Below, piece by piece: positions 313 to 37,355 of a stretch of 48,314 bases of DNA. Origin of the DNA: Acetobacteraceae bacterium (GTDB lineage Bacteria; Pseudomonadota; Alphaproteobacteria; Acetobacterales; Acetobacteraceae); the NCBI GenBank assembly GCA_027326105.1, contig DAHWFB010000020.1, positions 1 to 48,314 of the forward strand. The letters run 5' to 3'. The notes below the pieces were generated by a model, which was given only the letters and a program-made list of their open reading frames with translations, did no database searches and was not told where the DNA came from. A program made the translations under genes and the position numbers. The number at the start of each line of letters is the position of its first letter. Within the stretch, counting starts at the first letter, position 1.

Positions 313-645
313 TCAGCCGGCACGGTCGGCCTTGACGATCTCGGTCATGGTGATACCGAGGCGGGTATCATCCACCATCACGACCTCACCGCGGGCGACG
401 AGGCGGTTGTTGACGTAGATGTCGATCGCCTCGCCGAGCTTGCGATCGAGCTCCACCACCGCGCCCCGCCCGAGCTTGAGCAGTTGGCTCACCTGCATCG
501 TCGCCTTGCCGAGCACGGCGGAGACAGTGACGGGAATGTCATAGACCGCCTCGAGGTCACGCGCGGTGCGCCCGGCGCCGGGCTCGGGCGCGCCGAGGGC
601 CGGAGCGTCGGAGGACAGTTCCGCGAGTTCGACATCATCTGCCAT
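313..645 (-). CDS. fliN: Flagellar motor switch protein FliN
   Basis: SpoA-like C-terminus: DIPVTVSAVLGKATMQVSQLLKLGRGAVVELDRKLGEAIDIYVNNRLVARGEVVMVDDTRLGITMTEI. Confidence 0.93.
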   Translation of the reverse strand: MADDVELAELSSDAPALGAPEPGAGRTARDLEAVYDIPVTVSAVLGKATMQVSQLLKLGRGAVVELDRKLGEAIDIYVNNRLVARGEVVMVDDTRLGITMTEIVKADRAG

Positions 646-696
646 CGGTCTTGCTCCTGTCCGCCGCGGCGCCGCAGCGAGATGTGCGCTTCATGG

Positions 697-1704
697 TCAA
701 TAGACCAGCTCCTCGTCCTTGCCTTCGCCGATCTCGATCTGGCCCTGGGCCGCGAGATCCTTGGCCAGCGCTACCACCGAGCCCTGCGCCTCGTCCACTT
801 GGCGCAGCTTGACCGGGCCGAGCGCCTCGATGTCGTCGCGCAGCATCTTCGCCGCGCGCTCTGATAGATTCTTGAAGAAGAGATCGCGGATCTTCTCCGA
901 GGCTCCCTTGAGTGCGAGCGGCAGCTTGTCCTTCTCGACCGCACGCAGCAGCGTCTGGATCGCGGCGGGAGAAAGTCTCTGGAGATCGTCGAAGGTGAAC
1001 ATCAGTGACTTCACCCGTTCGGCGGATTCGCGGTTGCGCTCTTCGAGGGCAGCGACGAACCGGGTCTCGTTGGCGCGGTCGAGATTGTTGAAGATCTCGG
1101 CGAGCAGCTCGTGGGCGTCTCGACGGGTGTTGCGGGCGAGGTTGGACATGAATTCCGCGCGCAGGGTGCGTTCGACCCCGTCGAGTACCTCCTTCTGCAC
1201 CGTCTCCATGCGCAACATGCGCATCACCACTTCCATCGCGAAGGGTTCGGGCAGGATCGCGAGGACGCGGGCCGCATGGTCGGCGCGGATCTTGGAGAGC
1301 ACCACGGCGACAGTCTGCGGGTATTCGTTCTTGAGATAGCTCGCGAGCACGTTCTCGTTGACGTTGCCCAGTTTGTCCCACATCGTCCGCCCGGCGGGGC
1401 CGCGGATCTCATCCATGATCTGGGTAACCCGTTCGCGCGACAGCGTCTTCTGCAGCAGCCGCTCGGTGCTGTCGTAGGAGCCGACGAGCCCGCTCACCGC
1501 GCCGAGACTGTCGGAGAATTCGCCGCATAGTCCTTCGATCACCTCGGCTGGCACCGAACCCAGTTTGGCCATCGCCGCCGAGATCTCCTTGATCTCGTCC
1601 TCGTGCATCAAGGCGAATAAGCGGGCGCACTGTTCCTCGCCCAGCGCCAGCATCAGCGCCGCTGCCTTCTTCACCCCGCTGAGCGAGCCGCCGTCCTGTG
1701 CCAT
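697..1704 (-). CDS. fliG: Flagellar motor switch protein FliG
   Basis: [22 protein letters not shown] ... [73 protein letters not shown], FliG-specific motifs. Confidence 0.95.
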
Positions 1705-1705
1705 T

Positions 1706-3358
1706 TCAGCCCGCCTCCTGCGTCATCCAGCCGCGCAGGATCGCGAGTGTCTCGTCAGGGTGGGCGTCGGCAAGTCCGGCGACGCGGCGGAGCGAGGAGG
1801 CTCGCATCTGGCCCTCGATCTGGCCGACCTCGACCATGCTCTCGTCGCCGCCACCGGCGCCGCCCGCGGGGCCGGCGAGCAACGAGGTGCCGGCGGCGCC
1901 AGCCACCGGCGGGCCGCCCGCGCCACCGGCGATGGCCGGCGGTTCGGACCCGGCCTCGCCTCCCCCGAGCTGGGGCAGGCCGAGGCGCAGTACCATAGGA
2001 CGGAAGACGAAGAGCAGGGCGAAGAGGGCGACGAGCCCGAAGATCGCGGTCTCCACCAGCGGCATCGCGGCGGGTCCGGGCAGGGGCACCCCGAAAAGGG
2101 TCGGACGTTTCGCCGGTGCTCCCGAGGCGGGGCGAACGAAGCGCATGCTGGTGACGAAGACATGATCCCCGCGCGCCTTGTCGTAGCCGATGGCGCTTTT
2201 CACCAGATCGGCGATCTGGGTGAGTTGCGCCGGGGTTCGCGGCTGCCAGACCGGCTTGCCGCCCGGCCCCTTGGCCTCGGTCCCGTCCACCATCACCGCG
2301 ACACTGATACGCTTGATCTGCGGCTGATCGTGGATCAGCGTGCGCACCGTCTTGCTGATTTCGTAATTGTCGATCTCGTGGGTCGTGGTGCGTTGCGAAC
2401 CCGCCTGCCCCTGGCCGGCGTTGGCGTTGGGCAGATTGTTCTGCACCGAGACGTTGCGATTGGCGGCGCGGGTGCGGCTGCTCTTGGTCGAGGAGGTCTG
2501 CTGGCTGCGCAGCACCTGGCCGTTGGGATCGAAGCTGGTCTGGGTCTGCCGCTGCTGATCGAAATTCATCGCGACCGACGTCTCGACGCGCACGTGTCCG
2601 GGCCCGAAGGCGCGGGCGAGCATATCCTCCACCGCGCGGGTGAGGCGCAGCTCTATGCCGCGGCGGATTTCCTCGGCGCTCGACGAGCCTCCCAGGACGC
2701 CGACCGGAGCGCCGGCGCGGGCGAGCAGGTCGCCGCGATTGTCCACGATCGCGATGTCCTGGGGGCGCAGTCCGGGCACCGCGGCGGCGACGAGATTGAT
2801 GATCGCCGCCACCCCCTGCGGGTCGAGCGGCATCGCGCCCGCCATGGTGAGCAGGACCGAGGCTCGGGCGGGCTGGCTGGTCTGTGAGAAGGGCTGCCGG
2901 CGCGGCAGCACCAGGTTCACCTTGGCGCCGCGTACACCCTGGATCAGCCTGATGGTCTGTTCGAGTTCGCCCTCCAGGGCGCGGGTCTCGTCGATACGCT
3001 GCTGGAAAGCGGTCTGGCCGAGCAGGTTGGCGTGGTCGAAGATGCGAAAGCCGATCGAGCCGCCGGTGGGCAGGCCGACCTTGGCGAGGAGGAGCCGCGC
3101 CGGTGCCACCTGGTTCGCCGGCACCAGGATTTCGCTGCCCTGCGCACCCAGGCTGTACGGGATGTGCGCGCCCTTGAGCGCGTCGGCGACGCTCGCCGCG
3201 TCGCGCAGGCCGAGATCGCCATAGAGCAGGGCCATCGGCTGGTTGCCGGCACGCAGCGCGAGGAATCCGAGCATGGCGAGTGCGACCACGGCGACACTGC
3301 CCATCGCGACCAGCCGGGGCAAACCGAGCGACTTGATGCTGTCGAGCAGCGCTTTCAT
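1706..3358 (-). CDS. fliF: Flagellar MS-ring protein FliF
   Basis: [27 protein letters not shown]...[21 protein letters not shown]...; C-terminal second TM region and FliG-binding tail. Confidence 0.95.
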
Positions 3359-3525
3359 TGGCGCCCTCCAGGCCCGCGGTCGCCCTGCCCCTCTCGCTCT
3401 CGTGTCATCGCCATTCGGTTCCTGCCGCTCGCCGCCTCTTGCCGCGACTCCATTGTTGAGCGAGGGTCGATTACTCCGCCGTTAATCGGCCGGCAGAAGA
3501 TGCCTAGTCAGGCGAAGGGTGCGGC

Positions 3526-3954
3526 ATGGAACCAAGCTTCGATCGGGCATTGCGCGGCTTCGCGGCCGGGGTAGTGTCGTTTTTCCTGTTCCACCAAGGC
3601 ATGTGGGAACTTCTACACGTCGTCGGCGTGATGCCGCCGGCCTTTCCGATGGGGGCGACGGCACCGCTCGGCGTGCCCCAGAGCTACAGCCTGGCCTTCT
3701 GGGCCGGGATCTGGGGGGCGCTGTTCGGCTGGGTGCGACCGCGGCTCGGCGGGCTTCCTCTGGTGGCCGGCGGTTTCCTTTGCGGCATGGCGGCGACGGT
3801 GTTTGCGCTGTTCGTGGTATTTCCGATCAAAGGCCTGCCGCTGGGCAACGGCTTCACCTTTTGGGGGATCCTGATCCCGGTGCTGATCAATGGTGCCTGG
3901 GGAATCGGGCTTGGGCTGCTGCTTCCCTACACCCGCCGCACCGCGACCGGCTGA
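3526..3954 (+). CDS. Conserved hypothetical small membrane protein
   Basis: 142-aa ORF with several hydrophobic segments (AAGVVSFFLFHQGMWELL, LAFWAGIWGALFGW, PLVAGGFLCGMAATVFALFVVFPIKG, WGILIPVLINGAWGIGLGLLLP); divergent from fliF. Confidence 0.65.
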   Translation: MEPSFDRALRGFAAGVVSFFLFHQGMWELLHVVGVMPPAFPMGATAPLGVPQSYSLAFWAGIWGALFGWVRPRLGGLPLVAGGFLCGMAATVFALFVVFPIKGLPLGNGFTFWGILIPVLINGAWGIGLGLLLPYTRRTATG

Positions 3955-6905: not shown

Positions 6906-10372
<3,467 letters not shown>

Positions 10373-28725: not shown

Positions 28726-29607
28726 ATGACCCGGCAGTTGCGCAAGGCGGTGATCCCGGTCGCCGGCCTCGGCACCCGCTTCCTGCCCGCGACCAAGGCG
28801 ATGCCCAAGGAAATGCTTCCGGTAGTGGACAAGCCTCTGATTCAATACGCGGTGGAGGAGGCGCGGGCGGCCGGGATCGAGCAGTTCTGCATGATCACCG
28901 GGCGCGGCAAGACCGCCATCATCGACCATTTCGACGTTGCCTACGAACTCGCCGCCACCCTGCGCGAACGCGGCAAGACCGAGGCGCTGGCCATGCTGGC
29001 CACCATCTCGCTCCCCCCCGGCTCGATCGCGACCGTGCGCCAGCAGGTCCCCTTGGGCCTCGGCCACGCCATCTGGTGCGCTCGCGCCTTCATCGGCGAG
29101 GACCCCTTCGCCATCCTGCTGCCCGACGATCTCGTGCTCGGCGAAACGCCTTGCCTCGCGCAGCTCGCGGACGCCTTCCGCGAGACCGGGGGCAACCTCG
29201 TCGCCGTCACCGACGTGCCGCCCGAGCAGACCCACCGCTACGGCATCCTCGACGTCGGCGCCGAATCCGGCCGCCTGGTCACCGTCAAGGGGCTGGTGGA
29301 AAAGCCCGACCCCGCGGTCGCGCCGTCCACCCTCGCCATCATCGGCCGCTACGTGCTGCTCCCCGAAGTGATCGGCCATCTCGCCCAGACCGCGCGCGGA
29401 GCCGGCGGGGAGGTGCAGCTCACCGACGCGATGGCGCGGATGATCGGCGGCTCGCCCTTCCACGGCGTCCGCTTCGAGGGCCGCCGCTTCGACTGCGGCG
29501 ACAAGGCCGGCTTCCTCGAGGCCCAGATCGCCTTCGCACTCCGCCACCCCGACATCGCGCCCCAGGTGCGCGCGCTCCTGCGCAGCTACGCCGAGGACGG
29601 CGTCTGA
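28726..29607 (+). CDS. galU: UTP-glucose-1-phosphate uridylyltransferase
   Basis: [50 protein letters not shown]. Confidence 0.96.
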
Positions 29608-29621
29608 CGGACCCCCGAACC

Positions 29622-31052
29622 ATGGACCAGACCCGCGTTCCTCCCCGTTTCACCCATGCCTTCCGGCCCAATCTCCTGCGCGAATACGATCTGCGCGGCA
29701 TCGTGGGCGAGAATCTCCACCCCGCGGACGCCTTCGCCCTCGGCCGTGGCTTCGCCGCCATTGTTGCCGAACATGGGGAGCCCACGGTCGCGGTGGGGCG
29801 TGACGGCAGGCTCTCCTCCCCCGATCTCGAGGCGGCTCTGGTGGAGGGCCTCCTCGCCGGCGGGGCGCGGGTGCTGCACGTCGGCCTCGGTCCCACGCCG
29901 ATGCTCTATTTTGCCGCCCTGACCTCGCGTGCCACCGGCGCGGTGATGGTCACCGGCAGCCACAACCCTGCCGACTACAACGGCTTCAAGATGATGCTGG
30001 CGGGCAAACCCTTTTACGGCGAGGCGATCCGCAGCCTCGGGGCGCGGGTGGCCGCCGGGGTTGAGGCCCCGGTCCGCCCCGGCGCGGTCGAGCCGCTCGA
30101 CGTCGCCGCCGCCTACGCCGACCGCCTCGCCACGGACTGGGACGGCGGCGCGCGCGGGCTTCAGGTGGTGTGGGACAACGGCAACGGCGCCGCCGGCGAG
30201 GCGCTGGTGCGCCTCGTCCGTCGCCTGCCCGGCCGCCACACCGTGCTCAACGCCGCCATCGACGGACGCTTTCCCGCCCACCATCCCGACCCCACCCTCC
30301 CGGCCAACCTCGCCCAGCTGATCGCCGCGGTGCGCGGCCAGGGCGCCGATCTCGGGATCGCCTTCGACGGCGACGCCGACCGGATCGGTGTGGTGGACGA
30401 CGAGGGCACCATCCTGTGGGGTGATCAATTGATGCTGCTCCTCGGGCGCGACATCCTCGCCACCCGCCCCGGCGCCACCATCATCGCCGACGTCAAGGCG
30501 AGCCAGGTGCTGTTCGACGAGATCGCCGCCGCCGGCGGCCGGCCCCTGATGTGGAAAACCGGCCACAGCCTGATCAAGGCCAAGATGGCGGAAACCGGCG
30601 CGCCGCTGGCCGGGGAGATGTCCGGCCATCTCTTCTTTGCCGACCGCTGGTACGGGTTCGATGACGCGCTCTACGCCGCGGTGCGCCTGCTCGGCCTCCT
30701 CGCCCGCTCGGGAAGGAGACTTTCCGAACTGCGCGCCGGCTTCCCGCAAGTCTTGAACACCCCCGAGCTCCGCTTCGACTGCTCCGAGGAGCGCAAATTC
30801 GCGGTCATCGCCGAGGTCGCCGCCCGCCTCGCCGCACGCGGCGCGGCGGTGAACGCGGTGGACGGAGTGCGGGTGCGCGAAGCCGACGGCTGGTGGCTGC
30901 TGCGCGCCTCCAACACCCAGGCGGTGCTGGTCGCCCGCGCCGAAGCCGCGACCGCGGCCGGGCTCGCCCGGCTCAAGGCAAGGATCGCCGAGGAACTGCT
31001 CGCCTGTGGCCTGCCGGTGCCCGACTTCGACTCCCCCACGGCCGGCCACTGA
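29622..31052 (+). CDS. Phosphomannomutase/phosphoglucomutase
   Basis: [21 protein letters not shown]...[19 protein letters not shown] (phosphoserine loop), [26 protein letters not shown]. Confidence 0.95.
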
Positions 31053-31159: not shown

Positions 31160-31531
31160 ATGGAACTGTTCCTCTACGGCAGCCTGCTCGATCCGCGCAC
31201 GCTCGAACGCCGCAGCGGTGTGCCCGGCCTCGCCCGCCGCCTGCGCCCGGCGCAGATTCTGGGTTGGCGGCGGGTGGTGCCGCCAGGCCGGCGCTATCCG
31301 AGCCTGGGCCGCGTTCGTCGCGGGCGGGTGGATGGCGCGCTCCTCGCTCTGCCCGCGGGCGCCCTCGCCCGGCTGATCGCCTACGAGGGAGCCTATTACC
31401 GGATGGTACGGCTGATCACCGAGGAGGCATCGAGACCGCGGGCGGCCCACGCCTTCATCGCCAGCGCCCGCACGGAAAGGCGCTGGCGAAGCCGGGCGAT
31501 CAGCCCCTCCCCGTCGAACTTCGCCCCATAG
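31160..31531 (+). CDS. Gamma-glutamylcyclotransferase-like (AIG2/GGCT fold) protein
   Basis: MELFLYGSLLDPRTLERRSG...ILGWRRVVPPGRRYPSLGR...VDGALLALPAGALARLIAYEGAYYRM. Confidence 0.78.
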   Translation: MELFLYGSLLDPRTLERRSGVPGLARRLRPAQILGWRRVVPPGRRYPSLGRVRRGRVDGALLALPAGALARLIAYEGAYYRMVRLITEEASRPRAAHAFIASARTERRWRSRAISPSPSNFAP

Positions 31532-33167
31532 CCGGTGCGCCGGGCACCCCGGCGGCCGCCGCGCGTCGCTGCTCGGCCTGGGCAGCGAGGCCGCCAGCGC
31601 GGGCGATGCCATGGGGGTCGAGGACCATCGCCGCCGAGCCGTCGCGGAGAACGGTGTTGCCGGCGAACATGGTGATGGCGCGCAGAATGGGCGCGCCCGG
31701 CTTGACCACGACCTCCTCGGGTTCGAACACCCGATCGACGAGGACGCCGATCCTGCTCGGGCCCACCTGGACGACGACGATGCTCCGCTGTTCGCTTTCC
31801 TCGCCGCCGCCCTCGATCTGCAACAGCGAGTCGAGGCTGACCAGCGGCCACAGCTGGTTGCGCAGGCGCAGCAACGGAGCCGCAACGATGCACTCGATCG
31901 GGCTCTCCGCACCGGGTCCGCCGGGCACCAGCGCGAGCACGTTGACCCGCGGGATGGCGAAGCGTTCGCCACCCGATTCGACGATCAGGGCCGATACCAC
32001 GGCCAGCGTCGTCGGAATCCTGATGGTAAAGACGGTGCCCTCGCCCACCACCGATTCGACGTCGAAGGTGCCACCGATCGTCCCGATGCTGGTGCTGACC
32101 GCGTCCAGCGCGGCACCGCCCCCGCAGACCCCGCCGGCGGCAGCGACGGTGGCGAGCCCGGGGGCGAGCGACCCGGCGCGGGTCTTCTCCAATCCCAGCC
32201 CGCGCCCGTCATCGGCGATCTCGAACACGACGTGGCCGCCGACGTGATAGGCGGTCAGCGTGATCCGGCCGGCTTCCGGCTTGCCGCGGCCGCGTCGCTG
32301 GGCCGGCCCTTCGATCCCGTGTTGGGCGGAGTAGCGCACCAACGCGGCGAGCGGATCCTTGATCCGCTCGACCAGCGGGTGGTCCAGTCCGGTCTCGGCA
32401 CCGATCATGGTGAAATCGATCTTCCTGCCCAGCCCGCGCTCGAGGTCGCGCACCAGCCCGGGAAGCTGGTTCCAGGCGTTGCCGACCGGCTGCATGCGCG
32501 CCTTCATCACCACGGCCTGCAACTCGGCGGTGATCTGGCCGAGGCGCCGCAGCGGAGTAGCGAGGCTTTCGCTCTGCTGGGTGCGCAGGAGCGGGAGCAG
32601 TTGGTTGCGGGTGAGCACGAGTTCGCTCATCCGCGTCATCAGATCCTCGAGCACCTCGACTGCGACGCAGACCGTCCGGCTGCTTGTCCCGTCCGGGACG
32701 GCAGGCGTCCCGGCCGCCGGTTGCGTCGCCGCAGGCGCGGCGGAAGCGGCCGCGGCGGCCGGGGCGGGGCTCGCCCCGGCGGGCACGGTCTCTCCCGCCG
32801 CGAGGGCATCGAGTGCCGCGACCAGCGCCCGGTCGTCGCCCGCCGCCTCGGCCGCGGTCTCGGTGAACCCGGAAATAATCTCCCGGATGCGCCCGGACAT
32901 GGAGCGGATGAGGCCGAGCGTGTCCGCCGAGGCGGCGAGCTCGCCGTCGCACATCCGCCGGAGCACTTTTTCCCCGGCCTGGGCGACCCGTTCGAGCCGC
33001 GCCAACCCGAGCACGCCGCAGGCCCATTTGATCGAGTGGACAGGGCGGACGATCCGGGAAAGCGTGGCGGCGTCGCCGGGAGCGGCTTCGAGCTTGCCCA
33101 GCGCAACGTCAAGCTCGTCGAGATGTTCCTTCGCCTCCGCGAGGAAATCCAGCAGCAGGTCGTCCAT
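31500..33167 (-). CDS. cheA: CheA-like chemotaxis histidine kinase, probably catalytically degenerate
   Basis: HPt (IVRPVHSIKWACGVLGLARLE), P3 dimer domain (EVLEDLMTRMSELVLTRNQLLPLL), HATPase (LVRYSAQHGIEGPAQRRGRGKPEAGRITLTAYHVGGHVVFEIADDGRGLG), CheW-like domain (SALIVESGGERFAIPRVNVLALV); start MDDLLLDFL at 33167. Confidence 0.9.
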   Translation of the reverse strand: MDDLLLDFLAEAKEHLDELDVALGKLEAAPGDAATLSRIVRPVHSIKWACGVLGLARLERVAQAGEKVLRRMCDGELAASADTLGLIRSMSGRIREIISGFTETAAEAAGDDRALVAALDALAAGETVPAGASPAPAAAAASAAPAATQPAAGTPAVPDGTSSRTVCVAVEVLEDLMTRMSELVLTRNQLLPLLRTQQSESLATPLRRLGQITAELQAVVMKARMQPVGNAWNQLPGLVRDLERGLGRKIDFTMIGAETGLDHPLVERIKDPLAALVRYSAQHGIEGPAQRRGRGKPEAGRITLTAYHVGGHVVFEIADDGRGLGLEKTRAGSLAPGLATVAAAGGVCGGGAALDAVSTSIGTIGGTFDVESVVGEGTVFTIRIPTTLAVVSALIVESGGERFAIPRVNVLALVPGGPGAESPIECIVAAPLLRLRNQLWPLVSLDSLLQIEGGGEESEQRSIVVVQVGPSRIGVLVDRVFEPEEVVVKPGAPILRAITMFAGNTVLRDGSAAMVLDPHGIARAGGLAAQAEQRRAAAAGVPGAPAMGRSSTGRG

Positions 33168-33239: not shown

Positions 33240-33299
33240 GCATGCAGCCGGGGCGCATGCAGCGGGGGCGCATGCAGCGGGGGCGCCATCAGCCCGGGC
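33240..33299. repeat. 15-bp tandem repeat, three near-perfect units plus one degenerate unit, between ptsP and cheA
   Basis: gcatgcagccggggc / gcatgcagcgggggc / gcatgcagcgggggc / gccatcagcccgggc. Confidence 0.85.
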
Positions 33300-35142
33300 C
33301 GGAGCCTCCTTGCGCCGCGGCGAGATGGGCGCGGATGCGGGCAGGGTCGGATTCATCCATCACCCGCCGTGCCAGCCGCACCGCGCCTTCGATCGAGGCC
33401 GCCCGCACCGCCTGCTTCACCCGCGGCACGGCGGGTGCGTTGATGCTGAAGCGACGCAGCCCGAGCCCGAGCAGAAGGGCGGTGAAGGCCGGGTTCGCTC
33501 CCATCTCGCCGCACACCGAAACCGGCTTGCGCATGCGCAGGCCGGCCTCGGTCGCGAACTGCACCAGTCGCAGCACGGCCGGATGGAGGGGGTCGTAGAG
33601 CCCGGCGAGCTCCGCCGCCCCGCGATCGACGGCAAGGGTATACATGGACAGATCGTTGGTGCCGATGGCCAGGAAGTCGGCCTCGAGGGCGAGCGCATCG
33701 GCGGCGAGTGCGGCCCCCGGGGTCTCGATCATCACCCCGAGCGGGGGCAGGCGCTCGGGGATGCGCTCGCCGCGCCGGCGCAGGCGCCGCGCCACCCGCT
33801 CGTAGATCGCCCGCGCCTGGTGCAGCTCCGACAGGTGGGTGATCATCGGCAGCAGCACCGAGGTCGGCCCGGCCACCGCGGCACGCAGGATGGCCGCGAG
33901 CTGGGTCTCGAACAGCGCCGGCGCCCGCAGCAGAAGGCGGATGCCACGCAAGCCCAGCGCCGGATTGATCTCCCGCGCCTCGGCAACGACGCCGGCGGCA
34001 GCGAGCGCGTCGATCTCCTTCTCCCCGCCCCAGTCGAGCACGCGGATGGTCACCGGGTCAGGCGCGATCGCCTCGATGATGCTGCGATAGACCGCAGTCT
34101 GCGCATCCTCGTCGGGCAGGCCCTCGCGGTTCATGAACAGGAACTCGCTGCGCAGGAGCCCGATGCCGTGCGCGCCCGATGCGGTGACGAGCGGCAGCTC
34201 GGCGGGGATCTCGAGATTGGCCTGGAGCATCACCACCGCCCCGTCGGTGGTCACCGCGGGCAGCCGGCGCAGGCGGGCGAGGCGCTGGTTCTCGCGGGCA
34301 TAGGCGCTGGCCGCGCGGCGCGCCGCGGCGAGCCGCGGCGGTGAAGGGTCGAGCACCACCTGGCCGGCGCCCCCATCCACCAGCACGACCTGCCCCGGGC
34401 GCGCCGCCGCCGCCAGCCCGGCGACCCCGAGCACCGCGGGCACGCCGAGCGCGCGCAGCATGATCGCGGTATGGCCCTCCGCGCCGCCCTCCTCGGTGGC
34501 GACGCCGGCGAGCCGCCCGGGATCGAGCAGCGCCGCATCGGCCGGGCGCAGCGCCTCCGCCACCAGCACCGCGCCCTCGGGCAGGCCGGCGAAGTTCTGG
34601 AACGGCTGGCGGGTGAGATTGCGCAGGATACGGGCGGCGATCTCCCGCACCTCCGCCGCCCGCCGCTCCTGCGCCGCCCGGTCGGGGTCTTCCATGGCGA
34701 GGATAATGGCGCAGATCGCCTCCGCCTCCTCGGCGACGGCGCTCTCGGCGCGGATCAGGGTGGTGGCGATGCGCGCCCGCGCCCCGCGCAGCAGGCGCGA
34801 GCCGTCGAGCATGCGCAGATAGGCCTCGATCAGCGGCGCCAGTTCGCGGCTGCCCTCCTCGGGCAGCGCGTCGAGTCGGGCGCGCAGCTTGAGCAATTGC
34901 CTGCGCGAGCGCGCCACCGCCTCCTCGAGCCGCGCACCCTCGGCGGCGATGTCGGCAGCGACGATCTTCTGGCGGGTGACGGTGACGGCGGGCTCGGCGG
35001 CTCCGAACACCGGCCCGATGCCGATCCCCGGAGCGATCGCGATGCCGGCGAACACCCGCTCGCCCGGCGGTGCCGGCGCGGCCGCGGGCGGCGAGCGCGG
35101 GGCCGGACGCGGCGAGGGGGCGGGCGGGTCAGTCCTGCTCAT
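33289..35142 (-). CDS. ptsP: PEP-protein phosphotransferase, PTS enzyme I
   Basis: FAGIAIAPGIGIGPVF...EEGGAEGHTAIMLRALGVPAVLG (active-site His), GIGLLRSEFLFMNR, FLAIGTNDLSMYTLAVDR, SVCGEMGANP. Confidence 0.94.
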   Translation of the reverse strand: MSRTDPPAPSPRPAPRSPPAAAPAPPGERVFAGIAIAPGIGIGPVFGAAEPAVTVTRQKIVAADIAAEGARLEEAVARSRRQLLKLRARLDALPEEGSRELAPLIEAYLRMLDGSRLLRGARARIATTLIRAESAVAEEAEAICAIILAMEDPDRAAQERRAAEVREIAARILRNLTRQPFQNFAGLPEGAVLVAEALRPADAALLDPGRLAGVATEEGGAEGHTAIMLRALGVPAVLGVAGLAAAARPGQVVLVDGGAGQVVLDPSPPRLAAARRAASAYARENQRLARLRRLPAVTTDGAVVMLQANLEIPAELPLVTASGAHGIGLLRSEFLFMNREGLPDEDAQTAVYRSIIEAIAPDPVTIRVLDWGGEKEIDALAAAGVVAEAREINPALGLRGIRLLLRAPALFETQLAAILRAAVAGPTSVLLPMITHLSELHQARAIYERVARRLRRRGERIPERLPPLGVMIETPGAALAADALALEADFLAIGTNDLSMYTLAVDRGAAELAGLYDPLHPAVLRLVQFATEAGLRMRKPVSVCGEMGANPAFTALLLGLGLRRFSINAPAVPRVKQAVRAASIEGAVRLARRVMDESDPARIRAHLAAAQGGSGPG

Positions 35143-35464
35143 CGAACCCGGCCTCGATCAGGGCGGCGAGCGCCTCGAGAGCCGCCTTGGCATCCCAGCC
35201 CTCGGCGCGCAGCGTGACTTCGCTGCCGCAACCGGCGCCGAGCATCATCAGCCCCATGATGGAGCGGGCGGAGACCGACTGCCCGTCCTTCGCCACCTCG
35301 ACCGCCGCCTCGAAGCGTTCGGCGAGCATCACGAATCGGGCGGCGGCGCGGGCGTGCAGGCCGCGGCGGTTGACGATCCGCACTTGTTGGGAGAGCGCCG
35401 GCTGGCCGCCTTCCGCGGGCGGGGTCGGCGCGCCGGAACCGGTTTCGCCGATCGGCGGACTCAT
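35129..35464 (-). CDS. ptsH: Phosphocarrier protein HPr
   Basis: VRIVNRRGLHARAAARFVMLAERFEAAVEVAKDGQSVSARSIMGLMMLGAGCGSEVTLRAEG; active-site His and regulatory Ser present. Confidence 0.94.
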   Translation of the reverse strand: MSPPIGETGSGAPTPPAEGGQPALSQQVRIVNRRGLHARAAARFVMLAERFEAAVEVAKDGQSVSARSIMGLMMLGAGCGSEVTLRAEGWDAKAALEALAALIEAGFDEQD

Positions 35465-35955
35465 CCGCCGCTGCGAGGGCCGCCGCCCGAGTTGCCACTC
35501 GAGCCGTTGCCCGAGCCGTTGCCCGAGCCATTGGTCGAGCCGCTGGCAGCGGGCCTGCCGCCATTGAGCACGTGGGAGGCGCTGGCGATATATTTGCGCC
35601 CGGCCTCCTCGGCGCAGGAGACCGCCTCGGCGAGGCCCTGGCTCGAGCGCACCTTGGCGAGCTTGACGAGCATCGGCAGATTGACTCCGGCGATCACCTC
35701 GACCCCCTTGCGGTCCATCATCGAGATGGCGAGGTTCGAGGGCGTGCCGCCAAACATGTCGGTCAGCAGCACCACCCCGTCACCGGTATCGACCTTGGCG
35801 ATGGTGGCCTCGATATCGGCACGGCGGTTCTCCATGTCGTCCTCGGGCCCGATGCAGATGGTGGCGACGTTGCGCTGGGCGCCGACGACATGCTCCATCG
35901 CCTTGCGCAATTCCTCGGCGAGGCGGCCGTGGGTCACGAGCACGAGCCCGATCAT
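35461..35955 (-). CDS. PTS EIIA (mannose/fructose-type) protein with Gly/Ser/Asn tail
   Basis: MIGLVLVTHGRLAEELRKAMEHVVG...VVLLTDMFGGTPSNLAI...GVNLPMLVKLAKVR; tail GSTNGSGNGSGNGSSGNSGGG. Confidence 0.93.
   Translation of the reverse strand: MIGLVLVTHGRLAEELRKAMEHVVGAQRNVATICIGPEDDMENRRADIEATIAKVDTGDGVVLLTDMFGGTPSNLAISMMDRKGVEVIAGVNLPMLVKLAKVRSSQGLAEAVSCAEEAGRKYIASASHVLNGGRPAASGSTNGSGNGSGNGSSGNSGGGPRSGG
35501..35548. repeat. 12-bp in-frame tandem repeat in EIIA tail
   Basis: gagccgttgccc x2, gagccattggtc, gagccgctggca. Confidence 0.8.
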
Positions 35956-35964
35956 CGCCGCTGC

Positions 35965-36870
35965 TCAGCGGCCCGCGGGCGCGAGCCCGGCGTGGGGAGC
36001 GGTCTCGGAAGCGCCGTCTCGGGAAAGTTCACGATGGGTCACGCTTACACGCCAGCCGGAGGCCGCAAGATGGGATGCCAGGGTTTCGACGAGATGAACC
36101 GACCGGTGGCGCCCTCCCGAACACCCGATCGCAATCGTCACATATTTCTTGCCCTCTTGGACGAAGCGAGGCAAGAGCAACCCAAGCAGATCGTCGATCA
36201 TTCCCCGATAGCGCGCGAAATCCGGGTCCGATTCGATGAAATCCGCAACTTCCGGATCCAGCCCGGTTCTCGTACGCAATTTCGGGTCGTAGAACGGGTT
36301 GCGCAGAAACCGCGCATCCAGCACCAGGTCGGCCTCGCGCGGCAGCCCGGCGGGATAGGCGAACGAGACCAGCGCGATGGCGGGCGCCGCCTCGGCGACG
36401 GCCGCGAAGCGCGCCTCGACCAGCCGGCGCAGCGCCGCGATCGGCAGTTCGGAGGTATCGATCACGACATCGGCCGCGGCGCGCAAGGGCGCGGTCAGCG
36501 CCGACTCGGCCGCGATCCCCTCGCTCACCCGCCCGGCGGGGGCGAGGGGATGGCGGCGGCGGGTCTCGGTGAAGCGGCGCAGCAGTACGCTCTCCTCCGC
36601 CCAGGCATAGACGAGTTCGGCGCGCAGCCCGGCGCGCTCCCTCAGCCGTGCCAGCGTCGCCAGCACGGCGGCGGGGTCGAAGCCGCGGCTGCGGATATCG
36701 ACGCCGATGCCGAGCCCCGCGCTGCCGCGCCCGACCAGCGATTCGATCATCGCGAGCGGCGGATTGTCCACCGTCTCATAGCCGACATCCTCGAGGGCGC
36801 GCAAAATGGAGCCGCGTCCGGCGCCGGACAGTCCGCTCACCAGCACCACCCGCGAGGACGCGCCGCTCAC
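35965..36870 (-). CDS. rapZ: RNase adapter protein RapZ (YvcJ family)
   Basis: VVLVSGLSGAGRGSILRALEDVGYETVDNPPLAMIESL...VTIAIGCSGGRHRSVHLVETLASHL. Confidence 0.95.
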   Translation of the reverse strand: MSGASSRVVLVSGLSGAGRGSILRALEDVGYETVDNPPLAMIESLVGRGSAGLGIGVDIRSRGFDPAAVLATLARLRERAGLRAELVYAWAEESVLLRRFTETRRRHPLAPAGRVSEGIAAESALTAPLRAAADVVIDTSELPIAALRRLVEARFAAVAEAAPAIALVSFAYPAGLPREADLVLDARFLRNPFYDPKLRTRTGLDPEVADFIESDPDFARYRGMIDDLLGLLLPRFVQEGKKYVTIAIGCSGGRHRSVHLVETLASHLAASGWRVSVTHRELSRDGASETAPHAGLAPAGR

Positions 36871-37295
36871 GGGAGCGCTGCCAGGGCACCCGCGACCGCG
36901 CTCGCCCGCCCGGTCGCCGCGGCGAAGGCAAGCGCCAGCCGGGCCGGGGCGGAGGGGGCGAACGGGTCGAGCGCGATCACCGGCAGCCCGAGCGCGGGAT
37001 GGCGGCGCGGCTCGGGCAGGCGCGCCGCCGCGGTCCCGAGTTCGGCGGCCAGCACGAGCCGCACGTCGGTCCGGAAGGGCAGGCGGAAGATGCCGAGCCC
37101 GCGCACTTCGAGCAGCCCGGCGAGTGCCGCCGGCGCCCGCGCCCGGCCCGCTTCGATGTCCACCCGATCGTCGGCGACGAGCAGGAATCCATGGTCGAGC
37201 AGCCGGAGCGCGAGATCGGATTTTCCCGCACCCGCAGAACCGAGCAGAAGAAGCCCCTCGTCGTCCCGGGCCAGGCAGGTGGCGTGGAGTTGCAT
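36867..37295 (-). CDS. hprK: Short alphaproteobacterial-type HPr kinase/phosphorylase
   Basis: MQLHATCLARDDEGLLLLGSAGAGKSDLALRLLDHGFLLVADDRVDIEAG; P-loop GSAGAGKS; start 37295 or 37322. Confidence 0.88.
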   Translation of the reverse strand: MQLHATCLARDDEGLLLLGSAGAGKSDLALRLLDHGFLLVADDRVDIEAGRARAPAALAGLLEVRGLGIFRLPFRTDVRLVLAAELGTAAARLPEPRRHPALGLPVIALDPFAPSAPARLALAFAAATGRASAVAGALAALP

Positions 37296-37355
37296 TGCGG
37301 CCGGAATGTGGCCCTTCCCCATGCGGAAGGGAAGCGCCGGCAGCGAAGAAACCGC

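Follow-up and report, generated by a model that had tools for sequence, protein, structure and literature searches.

The best solved relatives of the protein described here are the CheA proteins of Thermotoga maritima and E. coli (PDB 1b3q, 6s1k), active kinases in which the N, G1, lid and G2 motifs are intact. The closest described system is the alphaproteobacterial CheA-receiver kinase, encoded in a cheA-cheW-cheY-cheB-cheR operon (L099; L031, L050, L044). Two further cases show what else can become of such kinases. Caulobacter DivL has a histidine-kinase fold without kinase activity, repurposed as a sensor of a phosphorylated receiver; it has Tyr in place of the phospho-acceptor His, and its Y550H form can show ATP-dependent autokinase activity (PMC4211667). 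In the split CheA3/CheA4 of Rhodobacter sphaeroides, the CheA-derived CheA3 takes phosphate from another protein (PMC6829392). In the open-access literature searched I found no description of a CheA-derived pseudokinase with a lost ATP site, and nothing bearing directly on inactive CheA, or on the loss of chemotaxis among Acetobacteraceae, turned up there.

The window analysed here, a stretch of 48,314 nucleotides, is one whole contig of a 2.55 Mb Acetobacteraceae MAG (132 contigs, 82.3% complete, 0.04% contamination). It carries a cheA gene whose product, hereafter window CheA, shares the P1-P3-P4-P5 order, the start and the pmm/galU position of the alphaproteobacterial CheA-receiver kinase, but is without the ATP site, a 23-residue lid segment, the second CheW-like domain, the receiver and the operon partners, and evolves about twofold more relaxed. 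Its domain folds are the same as those of the T. maritima and E. coli proteins, although of the motifs that are intact in those active kinases only G1 is so here. DivL lost its phospho-acceptor His, whereas window CheA keeps the His and has lost the ATP site. CheA3 and CheA4 form a pair within a complete cytoplasmic chemotaxis cluster, whereas for window CheA neither a partner kinase nor a receptor or receiver came to light.

The cheA gene and the lost operon

The features of the locus are as follows.

28726..29607, plus strand: galU, the second syntenic anchor
29622..31052, plus strand: phosphomannomutase-type gene (pmm), syntenic anchor of the ancestral che locus
31160..31531, plus strand: gamma-glutamylcyclotransferase-like gene (Pfam GGACT, E 8e-8)
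31500..33167, minus strand: cheA remnant, 555 aa (ATG at 33167, GGAG 6 nt upstream)
31596..32000, minus strand: P5, first CheW-like domain (Pfam CheW)
32001..32501, minus strand: P4 HATPase domain, degenerate (Pfam HATPase_c, 30 bits)
32094..32165, minus strand: ATP lid and G2 remnant (G1-G2 spacing; R350G, G353A)
32196..32213, minus strand: G1 box DDGRGL, intact (motif comparison with orthologs)
32307..32357, minus strand: N-box with H275A, N279Y (32331-32333) and D282Q (ortholog alignment)
32502..32681, minus strand: P3 dimerisation helices (Pfam H-kinase_dim)
32853..33161, minus strand: P1, the Hpt domain (Pfam Hpt, E 2e-9)

Pfam matches give the domain order Hpt (P1), dimerisation (P3), HATPase (P4) and CheW-like (P5), and the N-terminus, MDDLL..., begins at the start position common to all orthologs compared. 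P1 retains the phospho-acceptor His44 (33036-33038), Lys47 and Glu66, with Gly48 changed to Trp, and the matches to P3 and P5 exceed the Pfam cut-off though both domains are eroded. The protein stops after P5, where its orthologs go on into a second CheW-like domain and a receiver; at 555 aa, against roughly 800-910 aa in full-length orthologs, it is without the C-terminal third.

In a genome of the same family (G004, locus L099), galU and pmm are followed on the opposite strand by cheR, cheB, cheY, cheW and cheA, whereas the order in the window is galU, pmm, the gamma-glutamylcyclotransferase-like gene and the cheA remnant. By comparison with L099, the gamma-glutamylcyclotransferase-like gene, which lies tail-to-tail with the remnant and overlaps its 3' end, occupies the position held in relatives by cheW, cheY, cheB and cheR, of which no detectable trace was found anywhere in the window. 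Genes for pmm and galU also lie near cheA in G010, G128 and several other Alphaproteobacteria, and in the tree window CheA is nested, on a long branch, inside the canonical CheAs. Given this synteny and tree position, the simplest account is that the gene descends vertically from the cheA of an operon whose other members were deleted.

Directly upstream of the remnant and codirectional with it are hprK, rapZ, a manX-like EIIA gene, ptsH and ptsI (33289-37322, minus strand), and a GCATGCAGCGGGGGC-type repeat sits between the remnant and this PTS cluster at about 33240-33285. The gap from ptsI to the start of cheA is only 121 bp. A functional tie to these upstream genes (ptsI, ptsH, manX) was considered and rejected, because ptsI stands beside cheA in no relative's locus; the adjacency is treated as a rearrangement.

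The ATP site and erosion in the other domains

In GHKL kinases the N-box Asn coordinates Mg-ATP, and the roles of the lid and of G2 are likewise established in GHKL ATPases. An intact CheA P4 carries N, G1, lid and G2; in window CheA G1 alone is intact. The comparison sample comprised 106 alignable orthologs with a readable P4, no congeneric genome among them. His275, Asn279, Asp282, Arg350 and Gly353 are invariant in all 106, and window CheA has Ala, Tyr, Gln, Gly and Ala at these positions. Its N-box reads DPLAALVRYSAQHGIE, and the Tyr that the initial annotation reported in place of the N-box Asn is indeed residue 279, encoded exactly at 32331-32333. The collapse of the lid, also reported there, is equally clear from the G1-to-G2 spacing, which is 25 residues here but 48 in 104 of the orthologs, the two exceptions having 44 and 47. 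The deletion, of 23 residues (69 bp), is in frame at about 32150/32151 and leaves the segment PGLATVAAAGGVCGGGAALDAV at about 32097-32162, in which R350 and G353 of GRGVGMDVV are gone. The altered form occurs in none of the 106 orthologs.

A model made with AlphaFold from sequences of the window and the loci reaches a mean pLDDT of 81, and its P4 matches the T. maritima P4 (1i5a_A) with a TM-score of 0.82 normalised by target; the lid remnant, residues 335-348, falls below pLDDT 50. Because of the established role of the N-box Asn, the lid and G2, window CheA has almost certainly lost ATP binding, and on these sequence grounds it should have no kinase activity. The broken site is real and lineage-specific. 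Orthologs with an intact Asn and lid, which had been proposed in advance as the mark of a recent mutation or an assembly error, do exist; however, all belong to different genera, with identities to window CheA of about 57% at most, so they indicate that the loss is specific to this lineage but did not happen very recently.

The damage extends well beyond P4. When a residue is counted as near-invariant if 95% or more of 44 orthologs from the family share it, window CheA has changes at 10 of 45 in P1 (22%), 10 of 39 in P3 (26%), 33 of 95 in P4 (35%) and 13 of 59 in P5 (22%), where the average ortholog has changed 1-3%. With 22-26% of their near-invariant residues altered, the flanking domains cannot be called well preserved, as they were in the initial annotation, and their state gives no argument for a scaffold. 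Within the ATP-site motifs the count is 14 of 35, against 33 of 143 in the other domains (Fisher p = 0.054), and against the rest of P4 the comparison gives p = 0.50; a loss specific to the ATP site thus lacks statistical support. Every domain of window CheA is eroded, and the ATP-site motifs only somewhat harder.

Chemotaxis genes in the assembly and orphan cheA derivatives

The assembly, 82% complete, yielded no second CheA, which answers the suggestion that an intact copy be looked for, and no MCP, CheR or further CheW domain either; CheB and solitary CheY were sought within the window. The sole CheW-domain match in the assembly is the cheA remnant itself. Since the sampled family relatives with this cheA type carry at least two MCPs each, except G017 with none, incompleteness of the MAG alone is unlikely to explain the absence of all MCP, CheW and CheR. 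The initial description of the gene as an orphan CheA homolog whose ATP site is broken is supported. The idea of a receiver-interacting scaffold finds no positive support, as the locus has neither cheY nor cheB and the protein has no C-terminal receiver. As far as the searches went, for MCP, CheW and CheR in the assembly and for cheY and cheB in the window, window CheA lacks the receptors, CheW and receivers to which a CheA is coupled. As a separate observation, G017 (97% complete, no MCP found) encodes a full-length CheA with an intact ATP site (L168, about 7124-8848, minus strand).

Flagellar genes are present. The window begins with fliN, fliG and fliF, for the flagellar switch and MS-ring (316-3481, minus strand), and contig C11 carries FlhA (Pfam) together with an FlbD-kind sigma-54 activator, FlhF and FleN, these three read by eye. 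This flagellated lineage has probably lost chemotaxis signalling and kept, at its ancestral cheAWYBR locus, a remnant of the alphaproteobacterial CheA-receiver kinase. With the N-box, lid and G2 lost, P4 would no longer hold ATP, and for that reason the protein's own P1 would not be phosphorylated by it; the receptors, CheW and receivers that a CheA would couple would be missing as well.

Other genera hold orphan genes encoding P1+P4 derivatives of CheA.

L164, 10007-11173 (G001)
L165, 5834-6832 (G002)
L241, about 2689-3762 (G064)

These proteins are roughly 270-360 aa long with N-box and G2 intact, and have neither P3 nor P5 nor an adjoining che gene. The gene in G001 directly adjoins pmm and its product is short-lidded, and moaA is a neighbour in both G001 and G064. 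Shared descent with window CheA is not supported, as the tree places the orphans in a group apart (92% support, on long branches) and window CheA inside the canonical CheAs. Like window CheA they survive without a che operon; unlike it they keep N-box and G2. Genes derived from cheA can outlive their operon, and have done so independently in G001, G002 and G064. Two apparently damaged copies were also seen: in G134 (L177, 5369-6880, plus strand) a CheA with P1-P4 intact ends early inside P5 and looks frameshifted, and in G018 (L166, 9453-10607, minus strand) a fragment of the P4 of a second CheA runs into CheB-like sequence, probably a deletion-derived pseudogene.

Probable decay under weak constraint, and the alternatives

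The sequences show directly which residues are gone, that the lid has a deletion, that the protein is truncated, that the operon is lost at the locus and that selection is relaxed specifically in CheA. On balance, window CheA is probably a catalytically dead remnant, weakly constrained and fading since chemotaxis was lost; fading seems more likely than a new role. The lineage evolves fast and cheA faster still, with a tip branch of 1.14 against a median of 0.20 for cheA and of 0.45 against 0.16 for pmm. Under a codon model (custom script, MG94-type, F3x4, fixed topology), omega on the window cheA branch is 0.24 against a background of 0.08-0.14 (2 delta lnL about 17), and the relaxation is equal in all four domains. 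With a second taxon set the values are 0.296 against 0.134 (2 delta lnL 19.7) for cheA and 0.121 against 0.135 (2 delta lnL 0.3) for the neighbouring pmm; because pmm shows no such shift, the relaxation is particular to cheA and not genome-wide. These statistics overstate significance, as one control tip, G020, deviates the opposite way by 2 delta lnL 32.

Several points count against decay: the frame is open over 555 codons, the start and ribosome-binding site are intact, GC at the three codon positions keeps a coding-type pattern throughout the gene, and omega = 1 over the whole window cheA branch is rejected (2 delta lnL about 61); moreover, in a MAG that is 82% complete some chemotaxis genes could be unseen. 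The open frame, which the initial annotation took as a sign against decay, is there, but it is weak evidence, since the window is 70% GC and opposite-strand frames are open for more than 600 codons too (a 610-aa ORF). A history of normal constraint followed by a neutral phase of 0.13 substitutions per site gives just as good a fit (lnL -10662.3 vs -10662.8). Such a phase predicts 1.2-2.9 stops, where the 555 cheA codons contain none, and general experience with bacterial indels is that a neutral phase of this length gives several frameshifts, where the remnant has none. As these expected stops and frameshifts are not seen, complete neutrality seems to me less likely than constraint that is weak but continuing, or than a neutral phase that was shorter.

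The same observations lend some weight to a tentative alternative, in which ATP binding was given up and the dimeric P1-P3-P4-P5 body was kept as a scaffold or as a phosphotransfer (Hpt) partner for some other system, constraint being weaker as catalysis became irrelevant. A frame that stays intact over a long branch with omega well below 1, the missing stops, and the retention of His44, Lys47 and Glu66 in P1 are what a maintained protein would show; orphan cheA-derived genes do persist without a che operon in three other genera, and functional pseudo-histidine kinases exist, DivL among them (PMC4211667). However, no partner gene was identified, erosion reaches every domain including P3 and P5, and relaxation that is equal across domains gives no sign of one protected surface. 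The constrained-then-neutral history accounts for the branch equally well, and none of the 106 orthologs, all from other genera, shares the altered form.

That the protein is still an active, if unusual, kinase, for which G1 and a short lid suffice as in many ordinary histidine kinases, is very improbable. G1 is intact, the predicted P4 fold is confident everywhere but in the lid, and the CheA-derived protein of G001 is short-lidded too, yet that relative keeps its N-box and G2, whereas in window CheA the N-box Asn has gone together with H275, D282, R350 and G353. Although the genome is a fragmented MAG, an assembly or sequencing artefact of an intact cheA is scarcely credible, as the in-frame deletion and the many in-frame changes scattered over the whole gene rule out assembly error, estimated contamination is minimal, and two other genes of the contig, pmm and galU, look like normal members of their families.

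As a fading remnant, window CheA offers a snapshot of chemotaxis being dismantled: receptors, adaptor and receivers are gone, and the central kinase lingers, dead yet in frame. Were the protein maintained after all, it would be a CheA-derived pseudokinase lacking its ATP site. It is conceivable, though doubtful, that lineages losing or reducing chemotaxis repeatedly keep CheA alone among the che proteins, whether in the form of a dead P1-P3-P4-P5 body or of a P1+P4 mini-kinase that stands as an orphan, for a non-chemotactic phosphotransfer or scaffold role. The more promising candidates for experiment may be the orphan P1+P4 proteins, whose catalytic motifs are intact.
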